Below, piece by piece: positions 34,500-39,015 of a stretch of 64,000 nt of DNA. Position 1 is the first letter of the stretch, and each line of letters opens with the position of its first letter. This DNA comes from Lactobacillus xujianguonis (lineage in GTDB: Bacteria > Bacillota > Bacilli > Lactobacillales > Lactobacillaceae): assembly GCF_004009905.1 (NCBI RefSeq), contig NZ_ML136872.1, positions 1-64,000 of the forward strand, given 5' to 3'. The notes under the pieces are model-generated. The model was given only the letters and a program-made list of their open reading frames with translations, had not been told where the DNA came from and did no database searches. The position numbers and the translations under genes are program-made.

Positions 34500-34526
34500 G
34501 ACCGAGAAAAATCTCGGCCTTTTTTT
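34500..34526. terminator. Bidirectional terminator between the plsC unit and the ABC exporter genes
   Basis: CCGAGA (34502-34507) pairs with TCTCGG (34512-34517) in a longer imperfect stem, followed by seven Ts on the plus strand and an A-run on the left for the minus strand. Confidence 0.8.
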
Positions 34527-36105
34527 ACTTTTCTAAAAATATCTCACGATCAAATAAATCTCGCATTCTTTCGCTAAAATTATGAGCAATAAAAACGATA
34601 GTTGCATCAGTTTGCACTAACTTTTGCAAAATTTTCATCGTTGCTTGCCGATCAATTGCACTAGTTTCCTCATCAATTAAGAGCATTTTGCTACGGTGAA
34701 TTTGTCCACGGGCAAGGACAATCTTCTGCCGTTGACCACCTGAAACATTCAGCTGATCTAAATTGATAACCGTTTCTTTTCCTTTATCAAAACTATTTAA
34801 ATCTTTTTTCAATTCTACTTTAGCTAATGCCTGATCAACTTGTCCTGTTAGGCTTTGATCAAACATGGTGACATTCTCACTAATGCTAGCTGGAAACAAA
34901 ACAGGTTCTTGGGGCAAATAAGTGATTTCATTGAGTTTGGGAGTAATCTCCTCATTTTCTTGATCAAAATAATGAATTTTGCCACTAGAAGGTGTAAGTT
35001 CACCTAACAACAATTTAAATAAAGTCGACTTTCCTGCACCTGAATCACCGGTTAGTAATATTTTTTCACCAGGATTAATTTTAAGATCAGGAAAAGTCAA
35101 TTTCTCACCATTAGCGAAGTTAATTGCAAGTTTGTCGGTAGCAATTCCCCAAGGTGCCTGTCCAGCAGCATTCTTTTTAGGAATAATTTTACTTTTTTCG
35201 GCCATAATCGTTTGCCGCAATGACTGGCTAGAATTAATCCTACCCAAGTTATCAGCAATCCCCTGCAAAGAGCCAAATAAATCCGAACTAAAATTACCGA
35301 TACTAGCCACAAGGCCAAAACTAGCTAGGTTATTGACTACTAAAAAGGCAGTTAATAAAAAGATCAAGGCATCCCCGATGGAATATGCCAATTGATTGAG
35401 ATAATCCAATTCCTGATCAACCTTTTGCTTCTGCACATTAGCCTGCTCTACTCGGTTAGAACTAGCAGTAACGACCGCAAAAAGATGATTAAAGGCTAAG
35501 TATCTTCTGACCTCAGAAAAACCAATTAACCAATCCCCCAAAGTCTTCAAATAGTTTTCATTAGCAGCTGACACCCTTTGGGTAGCCTTTTGCAAAGCTT
35601 TACTCATAACTTTGGGCAATAAAATTTGTACTGCCGCAAAAATCAAACAAGCAACTAATAATGACCACTGAAAAGTAAACAAACTAACCGCTACAACCAA
35701 AATACTTGCTAACATTCCGGCAATCTTTCTGATTGATAGTAAATAATCCTGTGCCAATAAATTGAGATCATTAGTCATTCGACTCTGCACTTTAGCAATT
35801 TTAAGCTCTTGCTGCGTTTCAAAATAGTGATCTGTTAGCTCTTGTCGAATTAAGTGCAAATAGTCTTGAGTATGCCTTTGCCATAGAATATTTGACCATG
35901 TAAGGACTAAGTAAGACACTACCCAGCAAGCTAATTGCCCACCAGTCCAGATAAAGAACCAAGTTAGTTGCTTTTGCCGAACGGCATTGAATTGCCAAGT
36001 CAAAAACAAACTAGCTGACACACCCGCTAAGGCGCCTAAAACTTGGAACGACAAACTAACAATAAAGCGGAACGGATTTAGCTTAAATAATTCTTTTAAG
36101 TTCAT
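34525..36105 (-). CDS. ABC exporter half-transporter, second subunit
   Basis: A 526-residue half-transporter: six membrane segments (1-300) fused to a nucleotide-binding domain with Walker A GDSGAGKST, Q-loop YLPQE, signature NVSGGQRQ, Walker B MLLIDEETSAID and the H-loop IAHNF. Its start overlaps the stop of the upstream paralogue by one base (TAATG), so the two very probably form a heterodimer. The type (ABC-B-like export) covers lipids, peptides and drugs; the substrate is not readable. The attenuator-like leader in front of the pair suggests a role in drug or peptide stress. Confidence 0.9.
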   Translation of the reverse strand: MNLKELFKLNPFRFIVSLSFQVLGALAGVSASLFLTWQFNAVRQKQLTWFFIWTGGQLACWVVSYLVLTWSNILWQRHTQDYLHLIRQELTDHYFETQQELKIAKVQSRMTNDLNLLAQDYLLSIRKIAGMLASILVVAVSLFTFQWSLLVACLIFAAVQILLPKVMSKALQKATQRVSAANENYLKTLGDWLIGFSEVRRYLAFNHLFAVVTASSNRVEQANVQKQKVDQELDYLNQLAYSIGDALIFLLTAFLVVNNLASFGLVASIGNFSSDLFGSLQGIADNLGRINSSQSLRQTIMAEKSKIIPKKNAAGQAPWGIATDKLAINFANGEKLTFPDLKINPGEKILLTGDSGAGKSTLFKLLLGELTPSSGKIHYFDQENEEITPKLNEITYLPQEPVLFPASISENVTMFDQSLTGQVDQALAKVELKKDLNSFDKGKETVINLDQLNVSGGQRQKIVLARGQIHRSKMLLIDEETSAIDRQATMKILQKLVQTDATIVFIAHNFSERMRDLFDREIFLEK

Positions 36106-37688
36106 TATTTTTGTCCTCTCTCCAAGTGAATTTCGCGCGCAAATAAATTTCGCTGTTCTGGCGTCAAGTTATGAGCAACCATCATTACTGTTGCCTGTGA
36201 AAGCACGATTGTTTGCAAAATCTCGGTTGTGGCCGTTTGATCAATTGCGCTGGTTGCTTCATCAAGCAAAAGCCAGGATTTGTTTGCAATTAAAGTCCGC
36301 ATTAAAACCACTTTTTGTCGTTGACCACCTGAAAGGATATTTTTCTCAGGATCAATTTTAGTTAATAAGCCTTGTTGCAATTTATCTTGATCTGATTTAA
36401 AAGCAGTCTCAGTAACTACGTGGGGGACAGCTTTTTCTAAATCAGGCTTAAACATTGTGATATTGTCCTGGATTGTTCCCGGAAACATGATCAAATCCTG
36501 TGCTAAATAATCAACTTGCGCTAAATTCGGCTTGATCAAGCAATTATTTTTATCCAAATAAGTCACTTGCCCGGTCTCCGGAACAAGCTGTCCAAGTATC
36601 ACTTTTAACAAAGTTGATTTACCAGTCCCACTGTCGCCTGTGAGCAATACTTTTTCTCCACGTTTAATTGAAAAATCAGGATAAGTAATCACTTCATTAT
36701 TCTCATATTTCACACTGAGATTTTGCACCCGAATTGTCTCAATTTGGTCAATTCCAACTTTTTTACTTAGTTGAAGTTCACTTTGAAGGGACACTAATTT
36801 ATCTCTGAGCTTTTTGGTTGACCGCAGTTCAGTATAGGTATTAACGTTTTGCGTTACTGTATAAAAAACACCATTGGCAAAATAGCCTGCGGTTAAGATT
36901 GCACCCAAACTCACTTGATGTTGATAGAATAAAAGCCCGGCGATTACTGGGACACCAATTCTGCCCAAAATATCAAATGCGCCACTGACAATTGAGAGAT
37001 AACTCATTAAGCGCTGTTCTTGATATGACTTCTCTTCCAAGTCACGACTAGGTTGTTCGATCTTCAACTTGAGAATGTGTTTCTTCTCAAAACGCCGCAA
37101 TTCATCTAGTCCCTGGAACCAATGCGCAATCGTCTGAAGAAACTTACTATTAGCAGCTGAAACGGCAGCCGTTTTTGCACTAGTATATTTTTCAAAAAAT
37201 TTAGGTACCATAATTGCTAAAGTGGTAATCAGTAATGAATACGCAACTAACAGCCAGTGAAAAGTGAACAAGGTTCCAATCGTTAAAATGACATAGATCG
37301 AATCACAGGCAAAAAAGAATAAACGATCAAAATAGCGTTCTTGCACCATTTGTAAGTCATTTCCAAGATTATTTTCCATCGTCGAAAGTTCTGTGGGCTG
37401 ACTATAATAATGCTTAAGAATTTTTGCTCTAACTTGATGGAACAAGGCTTGCGTCTGTTTAGTAGATTGCACACTAGCCACATTGAAGCTAACGTTACAA
37501 ATCTGCCCGCAAATAAATTGCACTAAGAGCAACAGCAAAAAATAATTAAACTTACCTTGACTGATAGCATTCAGTTGCGGACTGGTTAAATATGTATAAA
37601 CTGTTGTCATGACTTGCGTCAACGTGACTGTCATTAAGACAAAAAGAGCACGCCGAGGATTAGTCTTAAAGTATTCTTTTAAACCCAT
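36105..37688 (-). CDS. ABC exporter half-transporter, first subunit
   Basis: 527 residues with the same layout as its partner: membrane domain (1-300), then Walker A GDSGTGKST, Q-loop YLAQD, signature LSGGQRQ, Walker B WLLLDEATSAID and the H-loop VAHNL. Both subunits carry apparently complete catalytic sites, so this is not an obviously degenerate-site heterodimer. The ATG has AAAAGGAAA upstream. Transcription starts in the long leader to the right (to 38018), which holds a leader peptide and competing hairpins. A third related transporter is at 60531-62138. Confidence 0.9.
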   Translation of the reverse strand: MGLKEYFKTNPRRALFVLMTVTLTQVMTTVYTYLTSPQLNAISQGKFNYFLLLLLVQFICGQICNVSFNVASVQSTKQTQALFHQVRAKILKHYYSQPTELSTMENNLGNDLQMVQERYFDRLFFFACDSIYVILTIGTLFTFHWLLVAYSLLITTLAIMVPKFFEKYTSAKTAAVSAANSKFLQTIAHWFQGLDELRRFEKKHILKLKIEQPSRDLEEKSYQEQRLMSYLSIVSGAFDILGRIGVPVIAGLLFYQHQVSLGAILTAGYFANGVFYTVTQNVNTYTELRSTKKLRDKLVSLQSELQLSKKVGIDQIETIRVQNLSVKYENNEVITYPDFSIKRGEKVLLTGDSGTGKSTLLKVILGQLVPETGQVTYLDKNNCLIKPNLAQVDYLAQDLIMFPGTIQDNITMFKPDLEKAVPHVVTETAFKSDQDKLQQGLLTKIDPEKNILSGGQRQKVVLMRTLIANKSWLLLDEATSAIDQTATTEILQTIVLSQATVMMVAHNLTPEQRNLFAREIHLERGQK

Positions 37689-37756: not shown

Positions 37757-37932
37757 CAAAGAAAAAGCACTGTTAATTAGCGTCATCTTCTAATTAGCAG
37801 TGCCACAAATAATGGTTAGTTTCGGTGAGAAGACTAGCCAGAATTCATTTACTGCTAATATCAGATTTAAAAATGGGTACACTAAATAAGCTTAATTAGG
37901 TACTTTCATTTAAACAACAAATCAGATATTAG
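37757..37932 (-). promoter_or_regulatory. Ribosome-mediated attenuator in the ABC exporter leader
   Basis: On the minus strand four segments occur in order. Segment 1, CTAATATCTGATTT (37919-37932), starts inside the last sense codon of the leader peptide. Segment 2, AAATCTGATATTAGCAGT (37851-37868), pairs with segment 1 at 13 of 14 positions. Segment 3, GCACTGCTAATTAG (37790-37803), can pair with ATTAGCAGT of segment 2 over 9 perfect base pairs. Segment 4, CTAATTAACAGTGC (37767-37780), pairs with segment 3 at 13 of 14, with a 9-base loop, followed by TTTTTCTTT (37758-37766). So 1:2 permits the 3:4 terminator, while 2:3 prevents it. The mechanism is inferred from this geometry. Confidence 0.75.
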
Positions 37933-37952
37933 AGATTCAGTAAACGAATCAT
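37929..37952 (-). CDS. Leader peptide of the ABC exporter operon (7 codons)
   Basis: ATG-ATT-CGT-TTA-CTG-AAT-CTC-TAA encodes MIRLLNL. It has a clear ribosome binding site, AAGAGGAA (37961-37968), 8 bases before the ATG. Its last sense codon and stop overlap segment 1 of the attenuator, so a ribosome held on it would mask that segment. Three of seven codons are Leu, one Arg. Short Arg/Leu-rich leaders are known before erm- and ABC-F-type resistance genes; similarity in style is suggestive only. Confidence 0.65.
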   Translation of the reverse strand: MIRLLNL

Positions 37953-37990
37953 ATGGCAAATTCCTCTTATTTCTATTAATTGTTGTTATT

Positions 37991-38018
37991 AGAATATCAT
38001 ATTCTTTTAATTTTGCAA
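37991..38018 (-). promoter_or_regulatory. Promoter of the ABC exporter leader
   Basis: TTGCAA (38013-38018) and TATTCT (37991-37996) on the minus strand, 16 bases apart, giving a leader of about 295 bases before the exporter ATG. The rest of the gap to 38185 is AT-rich and should hold the promoter of the divergent aac(3)-like gene; I see no clear one. Confidence 0.55.
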
Positions 38019-38185: not shown

Positions 38186-39015
38186 ATGTCTGAAAAACAA
38201 ATTACTACAATTACTAGCAAAAACGACTTTAAGCAAGCCTTAAAGCAATTAGATGTGAAAGAAAGCGATGCGTGCATCGTTCATACTGCTCTTAGCAAGT
38301 TTAACTATGTTCCTGGTGGACCTGAAAGCTTAGTTAGAGCTTTAAAAGAAACACTAGCTCATGGAACCTTGATGATGGTGTCTGAGGTTTCGACAAATTG
38401 TGATCCCGCAACTTGGGAATATCCACCTGTCAGAAAAGACTTAATCCAAGTTGTTCGTGATTCAATGCCACCTTATGATCCCTTAACTTCAGTTACTGAT
38501 GGAATTGGTATCACACCTGAATACTTTCGTAGTTTAACAGGAGTTATCAGAAGTACTCATCCCTACTTGCCGATCGCTATTTGGGGTAAAAATGCAACTG
38601 AAATTGCACACAAACAACCTTTAAACATGCCATACGGGATTGACAGTCCACTAGATTACCTTTATCAACACAACGGAAAAATTATTTTTCTCGGAACTGA
38701 TTACGAAACTTGTACGATATTTCATTACGCCGAGTCTACTATTCTATTAATCGTAAAACTGAAACTTGTTCTGCTGCAACTGGTATTGGTAAAGATGGTA
38801 AAACAACTTGGACTAACTACCAAAACATTGATATGGATTCATATGATGATTTTAATGAACTAGGAGCTGCTTTTGAAAAAGCACATCCTAACGCATGGCA
38901 AGAAACGCAATTAAATCATGGATTAATCAAAGTGATTGACGTTAAACCTCTGGTTCAATTTGCTAGAAAATGGTTTAAAGACAAAGATCAAAAATTTGGT
39001 AATAGTTTAGACTAA
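38186..39015 (+). pseudogene. Frameshifted aminoglycoside N(3)-acetyltransferase-like gene
   Basis: The first frame (38186 to about 38735) carries the AAC(3) pattern: VHTALSKFNYVPGGPESLVRAL, GTLMM, DPATWEYPP, PPYDPLTS, GVIRSTHPYLPIAIWG and GSPLDYLY equivalents, ending with IFHYAES. The rest of the family sequence (RVYYSINRKTETCSA to the stop at 39015) is in another frame. The break is at about 38728-38738, where a few bases seem to be missing. Such proteins acetylate aminoglycosides, but many chromosomal homologues have other substrates. As read, the gene would make a truncated protein with a wrong tail. It diverges from the ABC exporter leader. Confidence 0.85.

Follow-up and report, generated by a model that had tools for sequence, protein, structure and literature searches.

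The two-gene ABC exporter operon in the window, the whole 64,000-nucleotide stretch of Lactobacillus xujianguonis DNA that was analysed, is preceded by a conserved attenuator that contains a seven-codon open reading frame (ORF) encoding the peptide MIRLLNL. It is highly likely that the attenuator is operated by the ribosome, and it is most likely induced by antibiotics. We give a probability of about 75% to the complete reading, a ribosome-mediated transcription attenuator induced by ribosome-targeting antibiotics. The elements of the leader, their conservation, the covariation of pairings 1:2 and 3:4, and the predicted switch are observed in sequence and computation. In the proposed mechanism, RNA polymerase would transcribe the leader, possibly with a pause at a TTNTTT site. 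If a ribosome finishes MIRLLNL and leaves, or never loads, segment 1, composed of leader codons 2–5 and the stop region, would capture segment 2. This would leave segment 3 available to segment 4, and transcription would end at the U tract. A ribosome held at about codon 3 or later would cover segment 1, and segment 2 could pair with segments 3a and 3 over about 16 bp, as judged by eye. The antiterminator formed in this way would block the terminator, and the exporter pair, which presumably exports drugs, would be transcribed.

The leader is located on the minus strand between positions 38018 and 37758 (Table 1). The first-pass annotation described a promoter, a seven-codon ORF, four segments with their pairings, and a U tract, all of which are present, and its reading of them as a four-segment attenuator before an ABC exporter pair is supported. 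Segment 1 pairs with segment 2 at 13 of 14 positions (37932–37919 with 37868–37855), segment 2 with segment 3 at 9 of 9 (37859–37851 with 37801–37793), and segment 3 with segment 4 at 13 of 14 (37803–37790 with 37780–37767). The leader thus has the parts of a ribosome-mediated attenuator: a translatable short ORF with a Shine-Dalgarno sequence at the 5′ end of the transcript, mutually exclusive pairings 1:2, 2:3, and 3:4, an overlap of the ORF with segment 1, and an intrinsic terminator formed by 3:4, with full-length folds that are less clear in 4 of 14 orthologous leaders.

Two parts of the structure had been overlooked. Leader codons 2–5 (37950–37938) pair with segment 2 (37854–37842) at 13 of 13 positions, counting G-U pairs. 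Because GATTCGTTTACTG, together with the last base of the ATG, forms this 13-bp helix with segment 2b, the ORF itself, beyond the stop region, serves as segment 1. In addition, the antiterminator continues through segment 3a (37812–37805), which has a pairing probability of 0.73–0.99 when the leader is masked. In most relatives, this extension beyond the 9 bp joins ATTTGTT to AACGAAT (by eye), and TTATTTGT of segment 3a is present in all 14 orthologous leaders. The leader codons and segments 3a and 3 have similar sequences (ATTCGTTTACTG; ATTTGTTGCACTG in most relatives) and are rivals for one partner.

Table 1. Features of the exporter operon and its leader
Feature	Positions	Strand	Basis
ABC exporter gene 1, 527 aa, ABC_membrane + ABC_tran	36105..37688	-	Pfam domains above cut-offs
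ABC exporter gene 2, 526 aa, ABC_membrane + ABC_tran	34525..36105	-	Pfam domains above cut-offs
Promoter: -35 TTGCAA (38018-38013), 16-nt spacer, TG-extended -10 TATTCT (37996-37991)	37991..38018	-	Sequence
Shine-Dalgarno AAGAGGAA of leader ORF	37961..37968	-	Sequence
Leader ORF MIRLLNL + stop: ATG ATT CGT TTA CTG AAT CTC TAA	37929..37952	-	ORF kept in 14/14 leaders
Segment 1a (leader codons 2-5 + last ATG base); partner 2b; resembles segment 3	37938..37950	-	13-bp helix
Segment 1b, overlapping leader stop codon; partner 2a	37919..37932	-	13/14 pairing
TTATTTAGTGT: candidate NusG-type pause motif TTNTTT, between segments 1 and 2	37879..37889	-	Sequence; putative function by likeness to vmlR
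Segment 2 (2a + 2b); partner is leader (off) or segment 3 (on)	37842..37868	-	Pairing, computed folds
Hairpin between segments 2 and 3	37813..37840	-	Arms in sequence; orthologs by eye
Segment 3a TTATTTGTGG: antiterminator extension with 2b; holds second TTNTTT	37803..37812	-	Conservation, masked folds
Segment 3	37790..37803	-	2:3 9/9 and 3:4 13/14
Segment 4, terminator 3′ arm	37767..37780	-	3:4 pairing
U tract	37758..37766	-	Sequence

The window promoter matches 8 of 12 hexamer positions and is therefore missing from the list of a consensus promoter scan with a threshold of 9. A TATNNT -10 element is present in 13 of 13 aligned leaders and a TTG-starting -35 element in 12 of them, the exception being the leader from genome G421; a G-rich Shine-Dalgarno sequence is found in the 14 orthologous leaders (all by eye). 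Each of the 14 leaders carries TTNTTT at two corresponding positions, one between segments 1 and 2 and one immediately upstream of segment 3, and the total number of such strings per leader ranges from three to seven. Complementarity of 37811–37805 to the stretch just past the U tract (37755–37749) is also conserved and could act in read-through RNA only. A long-range helix of 37924–37915 with 37756–37748, likewise possible in read-through RNA only, is 91% paired, which is reached by 93 of 2000 shuffles and is not clearly beyond them.

Among the best 60 of 538 and of 548 PDB sequence matches of the two exporter proteins, most are exporters of the ABCB and ABCC types. The 25 best NCBIfam models for each protein all stay below their cut-offs. 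A search of the genome contigs with gene 1 identified five distant proteins. In 60 related genomes, at least seven loci beyond the window are 57–61% identical to gene 1; the others, among the matches listed, have at most 39% identity, or 40% over a part of the protein. The 23 other exporter loci at up to 39% identity (L013–L035) have no such leader by eye and are absent among 123 nhmmer matches at E up to 10. The gene upstream of the leader is of HAD type (by eye) in eight of the orthologous loci, a divergent acetyltransferase-like gene in three, the window included, and another gene in two, and one contig is too short. The differing neighbourhoods indicate that the leader is linked to the exporter rather than to the adjacent gene. 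The divergent gene in the window belongs to the aminoglycoside 3-N-acetyltransferase family (PF02522) and is split over two frames on the plus strand (38186–38863 and 38710–39015); genes that look similar by eye, with longer open frames, occupy the corresponding position in G013 and G468.

The pairings proposed in the first-pass annotation are conserved in relatives, and the lack of conservation that it named as refuting its reading is thus not observed. A BLASTN search of 75 genomes of the genus with a leader as query identified 14 full-length orthologous leaders. They come from 13 genomes, one of which, G024, is 57% complete and contributes two. Two 32-nt matches (L097 and L098) were found in the same search. 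Among 397 genomes of the family, representing 40 genera, long BLASTN matches to the leader are present in seven genomes, all of the same genus, and short matches in 31 further genomes.

Double changes that keep the pairing provide covariation for 1:2 and 3:4, whereas 2:3 is conserved but too invariant to covary. The 1b:2a helix, with an 8-bp core, is 97.3% paired in the 14 leaders and has three double-change positions; the paired percentage is reached by 0 of 2000 shuffles and the double-change count by 120. The first 8 bp of 3:4 are 99.1% paired with two double-change positions, for which the corresponding numbers are 4 and 385 of 2000. The support for these two helices is therefore provided by the percentage paired and the covariation score, not by the number of double-change positions. 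The 1a:2b helix has 97.8% of cells paired and one double-change position, values reached by 277 and 1755 of 2000 shuffles of its 3′ letters. Helix 2:3 is 96.8% paired, with no double-change position against the commonest pair, and is matched by 1704 and 2000 of 2000 shuffles, respectively. Both 1a:2b and 2:3 are thus conserved but too invariant for proof, and are not beyond shuffles. When the set is reduced to 10 representatives, the paired percentage is reached by 2000 shuffles for 1a:2b, 0 for 1b:2a, 1635 for 2:3, and 18 for 3:4, each out of 2000; relatedness among leaders inflates such covariation tests. RNAalifold, with no structure supplied, recovered 1:2 and 3:4; of 45 pairs, 6 are double-change pairs. 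The hairpin between segments 2 and 3 was left out of the pairing counts, since the MAFFT alignment is poor at that place.

The peptide MIRLLNL is encoded by 13 of the 14 leaders, and the four distinct nucleotide variants among these are all synonymous. The probability that four changes are all synonymous by chance is 0.003 when 15 of 63 possible changes are synonymous, or 0.02 when transitions are considered (8 of 21). Leader codons 2–5 are also constrained by pairing, and the conserved peptide is therefore support for peptide-specific stalling but not proof of it. To our knowledge, MIRLLNL contains no known drug-arrest motif. The leader of G421 has a second ATG directly before the ORF and in frame with it. 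The remaining leader, from G020, departs from the others and encodes MIRLRKF. It is the one leader with an Arg-Leu-Arg motif of macrolide-sensing leaders, which is absent in the other 13; RLR is a motif named for macrolide-resistance leaders (PMC6310831). The first exporter gene of G020 (L074, G020:C43:28256-29827) has a stop at codon 44. This early stop is confined to gene 1, as the stop counted in the second exporter gene is the gene end. Given the early stop and the poorly folding off state of the RNA, described below, the G020 leader may be decaying.

The switch was computed by folding the 14 leaders either unmasked or with a ribosome-sized mask on the leader, as full-length RNAs or as RNAs ending at segment 3. 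In the unmasked full-length RNAs, the probability of 1:2 is at least 0.91 and that of the terminator at least 0.92 in 13 of 14 leaders; in the exception, G020, the values are 0.21 and 0.24. Unmasked RNAs ending at segment 3 form 1:2 with a probability of at least 0.85 in 13 of 14 cases, and in G336 the probability of 2:3 is 0.51 versus 0.39 for 1:2. With the mask at codon 4, 2:3 has a probability of at least 0.64 in all 14 RNAs ending at segment 3. When the mask is placed at codon 7, equilibrium folding of the full-length RNAs favours 2:3 over 3:4 in 10 of 14 leaders. The leaders G027, G336, G448, and G024a stay terminated under this mask, and the outcome there would therefore have to be kinetic. 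A mask at the start codon leaves the terminator dominant in 13 of 14 full-length RNAs, and in RNAs ending at segment 3 the probability of 2:3 is already 0.45–0.95. These predicted folds suggest that drugs holding ribosomes at the start codon may be less effective on the MIRLLNL leader.

A leader of similar build is also found in 11 genomes of the genus, where it precedes a Vga/Lmo0919-like ABC-F gene. BLASTN matches cover the promoter–Shine-Dalgarno part of the exporter leader in six genomes (80–82% over 50 nt, E 2e-5 to 5e-4); in two further genomes, they cover the terminator part (76% over 70–71 query positions, E 2.5e-4 and 8e-4). All eight leaders matched in this way are positioned before an ABC-F gene, and three more were found through a protein search. 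The leader peptide is MEN in eight of the 11 and MKN in three. The leaders have 1:2 pairing at 11–12 of 12 positions, 2:3 at 8–10 of 11, and 3:4 at 12–16 of 17, followed by a U tract. For one ABC-F protein, the closest solved chains are a lincosamide-streptogramin A resistance protein and Lmo0919, and for two proteins the nearest NCBIfam models are those for general ribosomal protection and Vga, with scores under the cut-offs. In folding without a mask, the terminator has a probability of at least 0.89 in 11 of 11 ABC-F leaders. A start-codon mask makes 2:3 exceed 3:4 in 7 of 11 full-length RNAs, and among the RNAs ending at segment 3, no more than 4 of 11 have a 2:3 probability of 0.5 or higher. 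As modelled, the switch is less clean before the ABC-F genes than before the exporter.

Common descent of the exporter and ABC-F leaders is likely, although not proven. The 11 ABC-F leaders have E values of 1.6e-5 to 7.6e-3 in an nhmmer search in which the palindromes of the exporter leaders themselves give antisense matches with E values down to 2.8e-4, and the nhmmer support taken alone is weak and marginal. The homology leans also on the BLASTN matches of the promoter–Shine-Dalgarno and terminator parts, and on the architecture. A pattern drawn from the terminators, which misses the window leader and other leaders with variant letters, has matches in 6 of the 397 family genomes, four before the exporter pair, two before ABC-F genes, and nothing elsewhere; the reversed control pattern has no matches in these genomes. 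Other ABC-F genes of the genus that were looked at have different upstream regions. In a second ABC-F group (L135–L138, L129, L131, and L132), a short upstream ORF encodes MSRQVNNQ, MLRQVNNQ, or MSRDVNNQ (by eye), which suggests further leader-peptide control. Of the 75 genomes, 13 contain the exporter leader and 26 a Vga-like ABC-F protein (E ≤ 1e-40), and both are present only in G443; the hypergeometric P value of 0.02 for this overlap of one ignores phylogeny, and no conclusion is based on it.

The first-pass annotation named an antibiotic, or a shortage of Leu, Arg, or Asn, as the inducer. The presence of a similarly built leader before a Vga-like ABC-F gene favours ribosome-targeting drugs over amino-acid shortage as the signal. 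In an amino-acid-starvation attenuator, the ribosome would wait for charged Leu or Arg tRNA, and the pair would export a metabolite or a peptide. The order of the four segments is that of classical amino-acid attenuators, and three of the seven leader codons specify Leu and one Arg. However, MIRLLNL has no run of one amino acid, the downstream product is an exporter and not a biosynthetic enzyme, and the MEN and MKN leaders share with MIRLLNL, besides Met, only Asn. The diverged G020 leader has a single Leu, although the first exporter gene there is interrupted. Together, these features make starvation an unlikely signal.

It is rather improbable that the attenuator senses a ligand or a protein in the manner of a riboswitch, with the short ORF being incidental. 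Such a mechanism was proposed for predicted ABC-leaders in PMC2965389, which suggests an aptamer or a protein factor, and it would account for the stretch of about 37890–37874 between segments 1 and 2, which is strongly conserved and unpaired in the consensus structure; however, the TTNTTT motif is located within this stretch. Furthermore, the seven-codon ORF is kept in 14 of 14 leaders with only synonymous variants outside G020, and, because segment 1 is inside the ORF, translation must disturb it. The window has no match to an Rfam covariance model at gathering score, and the five matches to the leader region below that score (E 0.72–3.6) are at chance level. An ordinary intrinsic terminator with chance hairpins and no regulation is highly improbable: the AT-rich DNA is rich in inverted repeats (24 pairs, each 8 nt or longer), but the terminator lies between the operon promoter and the first gene, the mutually exclusive pairings are conserved in 14 leaders, and none of 3000 dinucleotide-preserving shuffles of 37757–37990 reproduces the complete layout, in which 1:2 pairs at 13/14 or better, 2:3 at 9/9 in between, and 3:4 at 13/14 or better with T's following. 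A terminator of the window's quality alone occurs in 2 of 3000 dinucleotide shuffles, and the fold of the 302-nt leader has a z-score of -4.19.

If it is induced by ribosome-targeting antibiotics, the ribosome-operated attenuator would be a conserved antibiotic sensor in lactobacilli that is absent from Rfam, and it would report at the RNA level which ribosome drugs these bacteria encounter. It would also link inducible drug export and ribosome protection by one regulatory design. We tentatively propose, as a possibility that we hold at somewhat below even odds, that a single genus has joined one attenuator module to two defences that are unrelated but directed at one drug class, the ABC exporter pair and the Vga-like ABC-F gene for ribosome protection. 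In this proposal, the length of the leader would set the signal, with three codons reporting on initiation and seven on early elongation, and the leader codons would act as a decoy copy of the antiterminator partner. The natural seven- and three-codon leaders of the same layout would make the relation of leader length to the sensed drug directly testable.

The first-pass annotation knew of no attenuator before such an exporter pair in lactobacilli, which needs correction. The ABC exporter pair bmrCD of Bacillus subtilis is described as being preceded by an attenuator that depends on translation and is induced by drugs (PMC4191407), and a terminator survey from 2010 predicted an ABC-leader in L. 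gasseri and L. johnsonii, where it precedes a multidrug export operon (PMC2965389). A literature search, with most subscription papers outside its reach, gave no description of the window element as a leader-peptide system and no paper containing the string MIRLLNL. What is new here is the similarly built MEN/MKN leader before a Vga/Lmo0919-like ABC-F gene; the kind is already known from bmrB-bmrCD and vmlR. The ABC-leader of the 2010 survey resembles the window leader in being a predicted attenuator of a multidrug export operon in the same genus, and the section of that paper on it describes no leader peptide (PMC2965389). Compared by description, the two may or may not be the same element.

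The window leader is similar to bmrB in its translated leader, the choice between terminator and antiterminator, the two-gene ABC exporter downstream, which does not imply orthology, and the ribosome as the putative sensor (PMC4191407). The BmrB ORF has 53 codons for amino acids and contains the terminator (PMC4191407), whereas the window leader has seven codons, its stop ends at 37929, and the terminator is located at 37803–37767. Unlike in bmrB, the terminator stem starts about 125 nt past the stop, and the leader codons compete with segment 3. The lincomycin-induced rli80-hflXr leader of Listeria monocytogenes also has an anti-antiterminator that overlaps a short ORF, an antiterminator, and a terminator, but its ORF encodes 14 amino acids with an RLR motif and the target is a homolog of a ribosome-splitting factor (PMC6310831). 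In the vmlR leader of B. subtilis, which is induced by lincomycin, a short upstream ORF (MIN) is positioned in the anti-antiterminator stem, with an alternative antiterminator, a terminator, and a TTATTT motif that is a NusG-dependent pause, the loss of which causes leaky expression and lower induction (PMC9226507). The window leader shares this organization, including a TTNTTT-type motif recognized by sequence, and differs in having seven codons instead of three and an exporter pair instead of an ABC-F target (PMC9226507). The closest counterparts of vmlR are the MEN/MKN leaders of sister species, which combine a three-codon upstream ORF with an ABC-F target in 11 genomes.
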